The notes under the pieces are model-generated. The model saw nothing but the letters and a program-made list of their open reading frames with translations. It did no database searches and was not told the DNA's origin. The position numbers and the translations under genes were made by a program. Shown here piece by piece: positions 21,080 through 25,020 of a stretch of 40,091 bases of DNA (its first letter is position 1; each line of letters opens with the position of its first letter). The stretch lies in contig SSHE01000021.1 of NCBI GenBank assembly GCA_008017315.1, positions 1-40,091 of the forward strand, written 5' to 3'. The stretch comes from Acinetobacter sp. Lineage in GTDB: Bacteria > Pseudomonadota > Gammaproteobacteria > Pseudomonadales > Moraxellaceae.

Positions 21080-21463
21080 TTACTCTTGTTCTTGTGCTTT
21101 CTCACTATCATAACGTCCTTCGTTTACTATCCGATGGCGTGGTGTCACCTTAGCATAGCGAGGATTCTGGGAAATGTACTCTGTGGTCTTACGATAAGTC
21201 CCACCATAAGGTAAATAGACTTCTTCAGTTCGCTGCTCACGATATTGCGACTGTGGCAATGGCATATAGATACGAACATTCGGCGTTTGTATCGACACAT
21301 GTGGTTGCGAATAACTTGGGGAACGGTGCGATGTAGAATGATGATGGTGATTATCATACTTTACTGCATTTGGTGCTTTATAAACGGATTGATATGTCAC
21401 AGGTACAGCAATGCTCAGCGTAGATGTACTCCATACCAACAAAGCGAATATTATTTTTTTCAT
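21080..21463 (-). CDS. Small secreted protein, His-rich, unknown function
   Basis: The track starts at 21523, but ATG 21463 has a fine ribosome site (AAGGGGAAC) and begins a clean Sec signal peptide (MKKIIFALLVWSTSTLSIA), giving 127 residues. The mature part has a His-rich patch (DNHHHHSTSH), Ser/Pro/Gln-rich stretches and Tyr repeats (YLPYGGTYRKTTEYISQNPRYAK). I do not recognise a family. The His cluster could bind metal, but nothing else supports that. It probably resides in the periplasm or outside the cell. Confidence 0.65.
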   Translation of the reverse strand: MKKIIFALLVWSTSTLSIAVPVTYQSVYKAPNAVKYDNHHHHSTSHRSPSYSQPHVSIQTPNVRIYMPLPQSQYREQRTEEVYLPYGGTYRKTTEYISQNPRYAKVTPRHRIVNEGRYDSEKAQEQE

Positions 21464-21590
21464 GATGTTCCCCTTATCGTATAGTATTTTCTCTATCATA
21501 AACGATTCTATCTTTTTTAACATTTTTACTTTTGTGAACTAGGTTTTCACGACAACTCTAATTACAATATGCAGCTATAAATATTGATAC

Positions 21591-22619
21591 ATGATGGAAA
21601 ACATAGTGACTCAAGCTCTACAACGTCCAATTATTTTAACTGGCGACCGCCCAACAGGACAATTACACTTAGGACATTTTGCAGGTTCATTGCGTAGCCG
21701 TGTGGGTTTACAAGATTCCCATCAACAATATTTATTACTTGCCGATACACAGGCATTGACTGACAATGCCGATAATGTCGAAAAAGTACAACGCAATATT
21801 CTCGAAGTGGCACTGGATTATTTGGCTGTGGGTATCGACCCGAGCAAAACCACAATTTGCGTCCAATCTTGCCTACCAGCACTGTTCGAATTGACCAGTT
21901 ACTATATGAATTTTGTGACAGTTGCACGTCTGGAACGCAATCCAACCATTAAAACCGAAATCCAAATGCGTGGTTTTGAACGGGATATTCCATCAGGATT
22001 TCTCTGCTATCCCGTATCACAGGCAGCCGATATTACCGCTTTTAAAGCGACCATTGTGCCTGTAGGTGAAGACCAAATCCCCATGATTGAACAAACCAAC
22101 GAAATTGTACGCCGAGTGAATCGCCAGATTGGAAGTGAGGTTTTACCTGAATGTAAAGCCCTACTTTCCAATGTCGGACGCTTACCAGGCTTTGATGGCA
22201 AAGCAAAAATGTCAAAATCTCTAGGCAATACCATTGTACTGGATGCTAGCGATAAGGATATTAAAAAAGCAGTCAATGCCATGTACACCGATCCCAATCA
22301 CCTACGTATCGAAGACCCAGGGCAAGTTGAAGGTAATGTCGTCTTTACCTATTTGGACGCATTTGACAGCAATAAAGCCGAAATCGAAGCACTCAAAGCC
22401 CATTATCGCCGTGGTGGTCTAGGTGATGGTACAGTCAAAAAACGCCTTGAAGCCGTACTCAAAGACTTAATTGAACCCATCCGTGAGCGTCGCCATGAAC
22501 TGGCAAAAAATCCAGATTACGTGATGGATGTCTTACGTGATGGCACAGAAAAATGTCGTCAAATTACCCAACAAACACTAGAAGAAGTGAAAGCTGGATT
22601 AGGTCTATTTCGCTTTTAA
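21591..22619 (+). CDS. trpS: Tryptophanyl-tRNA synthetase
   Basis: 342 residues. Class I signatures are present: the HIGH variant in TGDRPTGQLHLGHFAGSL and KMSKS in GKAKMSKSLGN. The enzyme charges tRNA-Trp with tryptophan using ATP. The opening GDRPTG..LHLGH resembles the type common in Firmicutes rather than the SGxQPSGxLTIGN type of E. coli; both are true TrpRS forms. ATG 21591 and 21594 are adjacent; no strong ribosome site is visible. The gene ends 166 bp before a strong terminator, with a likely small RNA in between. Confidence 0.96.
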   Translation: MMENIVTQALQRPIILTGDRPTGQLHLGHFAGSLRSRVGLQDSHQQYLLLADTQALTDNADNVEKVQRNILEVALDYLAVGIDPSKTTICVQSCLPALFELTSYYMNFVTVARLERNPTIKTEIQMRGFERDIPSGFLCYPVSQAADITAFKATIVPVGEDQIPMIEQTNEIVRRVNRQIGSEVLPECKALLSNVGRLPGFDGKAKMSKSLGNTIVLDASDKDIKKAVNAMYTDPNHLRIEDPGQVEGNVVFTYLDAFDSNKAEIEALKAHYRRGGLGDGTVKKRLEAVLKDLIEPIRERRHELAKNPDYVMDVLRDGTEKCRQITQQTLEEVKAGLGLFRF

Positions 22620-22639: not shown

Positions 22640-22820
22640 ATAAATATCTGCCGTCTTCATTGACATTCTTTACCTGTTTTAACATTCAATTACGTGTTTA
22701 TTCATGACATCGTTGCGTCATTCACAGATAATGGCTTTAACAAGTTAAGCAACATCCTTCTTAATTTGTAATATCCTAACTTTCAGCACAATGCTCCCCC
22801 AAGTATTGTGCTTTTTTTAT
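22640..22820 (+). ncRNA. aar: Candidate Aar-like small RNA between trpS and the suc genes
   Basis: The space after trpS holds no ORF but ends in a textbook terminator. From memory, Acinetobacter baylyi encodes Aar, a ~180-nt small RNA in the trpS-sucD gap that affects mRNAs of amino-acid biosynthesis genes. The position and available length here agree. The start coordinate is a guess from that length; I do not see a convincing promoter (TTGACA at 22660 has no good -10 at the right distance). Alternatively the segment is only the 3' leader of trpS mRNA. Confidence 0.5.
22785..22819 (+). terminator. Rho-independent terminator (small RNA or trpS)
   Basis: AGCACAAT (22785-22792) pairs perfectly with ATTGTGCT (22805-22812), followed by seven T. 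The 12-base loop contains five C in a row, which might be available for base-pairing with mRNA ribosome sites. Confidence 0.9.
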
Positions 22821-22825
22821 TCTTT

Positions 22826-23869
22826 TTATATGGATTGTGTCGAAGACAAAATGATCGACTTACGCTGAACCCCAAATAAAGTCCGATATTTCTGTAAGGA
22901 TACAAATTTATCATAATGCTCAGACATATACTGATTAAATAGATTTAAATCAATATCATCTGAAATATAAAATCTAAAATTATCGTCCAAAAGCTGTGCA
23001 ATCGGCTGATTGGTCACTCGAAAATATTGCAATGCAAATACGTCTGATTTACCAAAACGTTGCCCTACCCAGAATAGATAAGTCAAATATTGCAGTATTT
23101 CATTAATGCCATTTAATTTGGCAGATTGATTAATGATCTGATTAAATTTTTCGGTTTCTATCAAGCGTTCCAGAAAATCAAGTCGTTGCTGAAATTTATG
23201 GTCATGTGCATTGAAACTGGTATATCCCAAAAATGCTTGAAACATATCAAGGAAATAAGCATAAATCTCTAGCTTGGTGTGAATCGGAAAATCATTGAAA
23301 AAATCTTCTACTTGCTGCTCGACATCTTCTTGTTGCTGTATTGCCAGTTTAATTTGAGCAGTCCATGCGGCAAATTTATAATGTAAATGTGCCATTCCTG
23401 TTAAATTTTTGCTAAGACGCATCATCCGATGATAAAAATATTCTGCCTTAAAAACATCATGTTCATCTAAATGTTGTACTTTAAATTCATACGCCTCACA
23501 CAGTGCCAAACTCATATCTGCATCGTGTTGTTCGGTAAAGTTCTGCCCAAGCTTAATCAGTTCATTACATAGGTCATTTTTTAAATAAGGTAATAGTTCA
23601 TCTTCTTGATATCGTAACAAGCTTGCAATAGCAAACATGATCAGTCTTTTAATACGCATATCTTTGTGGGTATGGTATTGTGAAATAAATCGCTTAAGCT
23701 GAATGAGTTGATCCTGTTCCTCTTGGATCTTCCGCCAGTATGCCAAAATCACTAGATACTGAATTTCTGTATTTGATTCTTTATGATATTTCACAATAAA
23801 GGCATCAGGATTGCTCATTTGTTCTAATTCTTGCTGAATGTGTGAAATATCTTGATCTGCAATCATCAT
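22826..23869 (-). CDS. Helical protein of unknown function
   Basis: I do not recognise this 347-residue protein. It has no signal peptide or membrane segment and reads as alpha-helical almost throughout, with repeated aromatic-rich helices (EIQYLVILAYWRKIQEEQDQLI; IYAYFLDMFQAFLGYTSF; ILQYLTYLFWVGQRFG) that could form a TPR-like or HEAT-like solenoid. GGAGG eight bases before ATG 23869 is a strong ribosome site. It lies between the trpS/small-RNA region and sucD on the same strand as the suc genes but after the sucD terminator, so it has its own transcript. Codon use is AT-rich compared with the suc genes, consistent with a later insertion. Confidence 0.7.
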   Translation of the reverse strand: MMIADQDISHIQQELEQMSNPDAFIVKYHKESNTEIQYLVILAYWRKIQEEQDQLIQLKRFISQYHTHKDMRIKRLIMFAIASLLRYQEDELLPYLKNDLCNELIKLGQNFTEQHDADMSLALCEAYEFKVQHLDEHDVFKAEYFYHRMMRLSKNLTGMAHLHYKFAAWTAQIKLAIQQQEDVEQQVEDFFNDFPIHTKLEIYAYFLDMFQAFLGYTSFNAHDHKFQQRLDFLERLIETEKFNQIINQSAKLNGINEILQYLTYLFWVGQRFGKSDVFALQYFRVTNQPIAQLLDDNFRFYISDDIDLNLFNQYMSEHYDKFVSLQKYRTLFGVQRKSIILSSTQSI

Positions 23870-24129: not shown

Positions 24130-25020
24130 TTAAGCTAAGCCTTTCTCTTTCAATACTTGTAGCATGGTTGAACCGAGTTCAGCTGGGCTACGAGTATATG
24201 CCATACCTGCTTTCTCAAATGCAGCAAATTTCTCTTCTGCTGTACCTTTACCACCAGAAATGATTGCACCAGCATGTCCCATACGTTTACCTTTTGGTGC
24301 AGTCACACCAGCGATATAGCCCACCACAGGTTTGGTGACATTGGACTGGATAAATTCCGCTGCTTCTTCTTCGGCAGAACCACCAATTTCACCAATCATG
24401 ATAATCGCATCGGTATCTGGATCATCTTGAAAAAGTTGTAAAGCATCAATCTGATTCATCCCTGGAATTGGGTCACCACCAATACCGATACAGGTTGATT
24501 GCCCCAAACCTAGACGAGTGGTTTGTGAGACGGCTTCATAGGTTAATGTACCTGAACGTGAAATAATACCGATACGACCAGGTTGATGAATATGACCTGG
24601 CATAATCCCGATTTTACATTCACCTGGGGTAATCACACCTGGACAGTTCGGGCCAACTAGACGTACGCCATTACCATTGGTTTCAAGGTAACGTTTGGCT
24701 TTGAGCATATCGATGGTTGGTACACCTTCGGTAATCACCACGATAAGTCCCACGCCTGAATCAACTGCTTCGACAATTGAATCTAAAACAAATGGTGCTG
24801 GTACATAAATCACCGACGCATCTGCACCTGTTTCACGTACCGCATCTTTCATGGTATTAAATACAGGTAAATCCAAATGGGTTGTACCGCCTTTACCTGG
24901 CGTGACACCACCCACCACTTTTGTGCCGTACTCTAATGCTTGTGCAGAATGGAATGTACCATTTTTACCCGTAAAACCCTGTACCAATACTTTAGTGTCT
25001 TTATTAATTAATACGCTCAT
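24130..25020 (-). CDS. sucD: Succinyl-CoA synthetase alpha subunit
   Basis: 296 residues. N-terminal CoA-binding Rossmann domain ([30 protein letters not shown]), ligase domain, and the phosphorylated His in [14 protein letters not shown]. With SucC it converts succinyl-CoA plus ADP and phosphate to succinate, CoA and ATP in the citrate cycle. AAGGAGTATCAATC precedes the ATG. It follows sucC by 12 bp and is the last gene of the suc operon, before a clear terminator. Nothing unusual. Confidence 0.97.

Follow-up and report, generated by a model that had tools for sequence, protein, structure and literature searches.

The small RNA Aar (Rfam family RF02375) is a proven repressor at ribosome-binding sites in Acinetobacter baumannii (PMC11472050) and is associated with Hfq (PMC12802169). 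The A. baumannii RNA (sRNA21) is 103 nt long by northern blot and dRNA-seq, the Acinetobacter baylyi RNA has been reported as 181 nt, and osmotic shock induces Aar in both species (PMC11472050). The seed through which published Aar works is a CUCC in the single-stranded 5′ part, and binding is lost when CUCC is mutated. When Aar was probed in-line with carO and bfnH, protection was seen at positions 15-17, 25-38, 37-43 and 45-48, and not in the terminator loop (PMC11472050).

We analyzed a 40,091-nt stretch of Acinetobacter sp. DNA (contig SSHE01000021.1, hereafter the window), in which an Aar-like RNA had been predicted at 22640-22820. Judged from sequence, the locus most likely encodes a shortened, diverged Aar. 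We assign a probability of about 0.8 to the reading that the locus is a divergent aar orthologue and would produce an ~80-nt RNA with two hairpins from its own promoter. The argument for orthology combines the position after trpS, a shared promoter layout, a covarying terminator stem and a sub-threshold Rfam match. We class the locus as an Aar variant because it falls below the Rfam gathering score and lacks the CUCC seed; its basic kind is already known, but these two departures make it more than a routine member of the family.

In the window, trpS (21591-22619, + strand; Pfam PF00579, tRNA-synt_1b, and ORF call) has its stop at 22619, and the next ORF is convergent, on the − strand, ending at 22826. 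Terminator scans found a single terminator between the two, at 22785-22818 on the + strand (AGCACAATGCTCCCCCAAGTATTGTGCT followed by seven T), and detected none of trpS's own before 22785. Its RNA folds into an 11-bp stem with the loop CCCCCA, which includes the CCCCA (22797-22801) typical of the family terminator, and bears out the original prediction of gene-free DNA after trpS that ends in a strong terminator with five C in its loop. sucD lies at 24130-25020, and aar sits directly 3′ of trpS in the trpS-sucD region where Aar is expected, with one additional ORF before sucD. That ORF encodes 347 aa (22826-23869, − strand) and has no Pfam match; among 80 related loci, a distant relative (27%) occupies the same place in A. 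puyangensis (L038) only. A 147-aa His-rich ORF upstream of trpS (21080-21523, − strand) also has no Pfam match and is present in 5 of the 80 loci. The element follows trpS in 77 of 80 named trpS loci. The other three (L046, L085 and L105) have no aar copy beside trpS, and their downstream DNA soon enters other genes, as if it had been rearranged. Of the 80 loci, 20 have sucD within the 3.5 kb retrieved downstream, and 12 of these have it no more than about 450 bp from the trpS stop.

At gathering thresholds, an Rfam scan returned no match in the window. Under a relaxed threshold, the best match was RF02375, which aligned over its full length (model 1-191) to 22668-22833 with 33.5 bits (E = 0.0022 for 341 nt searched). 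The family's gathering score is 60 bits, so that formal Rfam membership is not reached. Three other weak matches in the relaxed scan (csRNA, SNORA81 and DdR8) were at chance level. Of 176 genus genomes, 173 have an RF02375 match, which exceeds the cut-off in 153; the 14 control genomes have none, and the only match in the genome that contains the window is at this locus. Most of the 23 genus genomes without a match at or above the gathering score have a weaker one. Several other Acinetobacter species score equally low, indicating that a divergent group of species falls below the curated threshold. In most species, the 5′ part of the RF02375 model appears to be promoter DNA. A plain DNA search across 119 genomes gave only 4 matches and was uninformative.

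Upstream of the terminator, the window has an array of three T(T/A)AC repeats at exact 10-bp spacing (22670-22693, + strand; TTAC at 22670, TAAC at 22680 and TTAC at 22690), which matches at 12 of 12 positions and is equaled in 0 of 200 shuffles. A predicted −35 hexamer, ATGACA (22704-22709, + strand), begins 14 bp beyond the first base of the third repeat, as does ATGAAC in A. nosocomialis-type loci, and a predicted −10 hexamer, GATAAT (22727-22732, + strand; 10/12 sigma-70 match), follows after a 17-bp spacer. The sigma-70 scan as a whole did not exceed its shuffles, and support for the −10 hexamer therefore comes from its conserved spacing. The array is perfect in 67 of 78 aar loci, including this one, and each perfect array is equaled by 0 to 1 of 200 dinucleotide shuffles. 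Typically, ATGAAC or ATGACA comes 14 bp on, followed by a 17-bp spacer and a −10-like hexamer. The distance from the array to the CCCCA loop is about 125-136 bp in the main group of loci and 95-109 bp in the group to which the window belongs. The window copy has a predicted promoter of its own with the genus-wide layout, a layout described in the present analysis and lying outside the published definition of Aar. In the literature searched, we found no earlier description of either the array or the invariance of the CCCCA loop. In the same genome (2.05 Mb), the three-repeat pattern occurs at aar and otherwise once, in a simple TTACA repeat, compared with 17 matches for a reversed control pattern.

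Direct repeats at 10-bp spacing upstream of a −35 element are the arrangement of an OmpR/PhoB-family site, and the phased array in these 67 of 78 loci suggests that it is a site for an OmpR-type regulator. Its spacing agrees with both the E. coli OmpR consensus, TTTTACTTTTTG(A/T)AACATAT (quoted in PMC7156557), and the P. aeruginosa BfmR motif, TACAA-N3-GATACA (PMC8025907). Base matches, however, separate neither regulator from the other, nor either from background. The OmpR consensus matches the array at 14 of 20 positions, a count shared by many other sites in the window, and we do not name OmpR on this match; the BfmR motif fits in spacing only, and BfmR is likewise not named. We found no A. 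baumannii regulator motif in the literature searched. The genome encodes at least five OmpR/PhoB-family regulators, among which the osmotic-shock induction of Aar would make OmpR the first candidate.

Given a promoter at 22704-22732, the predicted start falls near 22739 (± 2 nt, from the −10 hexamer), giving a predicted Aar transcript of about 80 nt on the + strand (22739-22818), with 22640-22738 as promoter DNA outside the RNA. Of the extent first proposed, 22640-22820, the RNA and terminator part is thus retained and the upstream part reassigned; the proposed ~180-nt transcript is probably wrong. An 82-nt RNA is predicted to form two hairpins (−21.3 kcal/mol, z = −7.5; 0 of 200 shuffles as stable). 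Hairpin 1 (22740-22769, + strand) has a 10-bp stem and the loop CAACAUCCUU (22750-22759), possibly the diverged counterpart of the ACAUUUCUCCUU seed region. The second hairpin is the terminator, whose stem covaries across the genus: among 31 distinct sequences, pairing is kept in 98.1% of cells, both partners have changed in 8 of the 10 pairs, and none of 500 shuffles reaches the 37 two-sided cells observed.

Despite these compensatory changes in the stem, the loop contains CCCCA in all 78 trpS-linked copies, the set to which our CCCCA and UCUCC counts are restricted. This invariance was established by a terminator scan without any condition on the loop, in which every terminator at the aar position had CCCCA. 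Two more aar copies with imperfect stems also have it, and the divergent L153, which sits one column off in alignment A1, has a loop that reads ACCCCA. Across 80 Acinetobacter loci, CCCC was found in the loop of 0 of 131 other terminators versus 75 aar terminators; because these 75 were recognized by CCCCA and position, the unbiased check is the scan without a loop condition.

The window copy thus resembles described Aar in its place downstream of trpS, its promoter layout and its two-hairpin fold, in which the 3′ hairpin has a covarying stem and a CCCCA loop. It differs in its shorter predicted length, in its CCCCCA loop, and in having a 10-bp hairpin with the loop CAACAUCCUU in place of the UCUCC seed. 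The Aar copies of A. populi and A. puyangensis (L037 and L038) are variants with the same upstream block and the same promoter layout as the window copy, and their first hairpin resembles its own (AAGUUAAG stem). They differ in that UCCUU is missing from the first loop and a free ACCCCAAG stands between the two hairpins.

Four observations count against an Aar orthologue: the 33.5-bit score, the missing UCUCC motif, a lone sigma-70 promoter match no better than shuffle expectation, and the extra 347-aa ORF between aar and sucD. The Rfam score, which is low and has the 3′ part aligning best, would also suit a hairpin that serves only to terminate trpS transcription, with no separate RNA and with its similarity to Aar reduced to inherited terminator sequence, as would the lack of any other terminator in the window between trpS and 22785. 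We consider this improbable: the array, −35 and −10 are conserved upstream at fixed spacing, hairpin 1 is predicted as well, in many relatives a trpS terminator exists alongside the CCCCA one, and a bare terminator needs no invariant loop on a changing stem. Similarly small is the chance of a longer RNA of ~150-180 nt with its start around 22640-22668, which would correspond to the A. baylyi annotation and to the span of the Rfam model. The start of the Rfam alignment at 22668 and the reported 181-nt length of A. baylyi Aar (PMC11472050) speak for such an RNA, but its 5′ part would hold the T(T/A)AC array and the promoter hexamers, the A. baumannii RNA measures 103 nt, and added 5′ sequence weakens the significance of the fold (z = −4.6 for 181 nt vs. 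−7.5 for 82 nt). Because the A. baylyi 5′ extension spans the same array, the 5′ end of that RNA may itself deserve another look. The reading that best fits these observations remains a short Aar variant, for which the original assignment to the Aar type holds by the sub-threshold Rfam match together with synteny and the homology of promoter and terminator.

Within the Aar reading, the known seed varies more than the terminator loop does: UCUCC occurs in 68 of the 78 copies, CCCCA in every one. UCUCC is absent from the window copy, A. populi, A. puyangensis, A. qingfengensis, A. nectaris and five others, and the published seed therefore cannot explain Aar genus-wide. No CTCC occurs in the 5′ part of the window copy, which instead places UCCUU in the hairpin 1 loop. 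In L049, L101, L102, L111 and others, extra copies of CCCCAA lie upstream of the UCUCC seed, near protected region 1 of the A. baumannii RNA.

The original prediction had further proposed that the C-rich loop can pair with G-rich ribosome sites, which is a hypothesis. With a CarO query used only as a probe, we located a carO orthologue in the same genome, 51% identical to the query, with the start region TTTTTGGAGGAGTTTAAGATG. In this test of one gene in one genome, the loop segment CUCCCCCAAG was predicted to form a duplex with UUGGAGGAG in the carO ribosome site, with one mismatch (−10.8 kcal/mol), and 1 of 46 other start regions did as well (median −4.3). Pairing of the hairpin 1 loop with carO was unremarkable, as 6 of 46 other start regions were as good. 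The loop pairing is no more than suggestive; a strong ribosome site fits any C-run. A genome-wide search for GGGGGA near ATG gave 114 matches vs. 57 for the control, about twice as many, and is thus too unspecific for naming targets.

These results raise a refinement, compatible with an Aar orthologue, in which the C-rich loop would be the main targeting site in this lineage, would replace the lost CUCC seed, and would pair with G-rich ribosome sites, the carO site among them. The invariance of the loop where the seed is missing, the carO duplex and the additional CCCC copies that about 20 species have further upstream in the RNA all point in this direction. On the other hand, the contacts mapped in A. 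baumannii with carO and bfnH exclude the terminator loop, any C-run suits strong ribosome sites, carO is a single case, and the excess of GGGGGA-ATG matches over control is only twofold. We therefore regard the refinement as doubtful. No firmer, and equally tentative, is a broader proposal: that the CCCCA loop is a second, older and overlooked element of Aar, acting through pairing or protein binding and kept genus-wide while the seed was lost in several lineages, and that aar is the sole three-repeat OmpR-type target in its genome.

Taken together, the locus would work as follows. An OmpR/PhoB-family regulator on the array would probably activate the sigma-70 promoter just downstream (22704-22732), which would drive a two-hairpin RNA of ~80 nt (22739-22818) that ends at the intrinsic terminator. 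By homology with Aar, this RNA would associate with Hfq and act as a repressor, covering ribosome-binding sites through base pairing.

Whether Aar has common regulators across species despite differing promoter regions has been asked by others (PMC11472050), and the 10-bp-phased array in most species is a direct candidate site for a shared regulator. If aar is indeed the only three-repeat OmpR-type target, its induction under osmotic shock would be accounted for. Two interactome studies give Aar a prominent place, and it is a hub RNA of Acinetobacter. The invariance of its loop points to a function in a region left untouched by the mutations made in the published work considered here.
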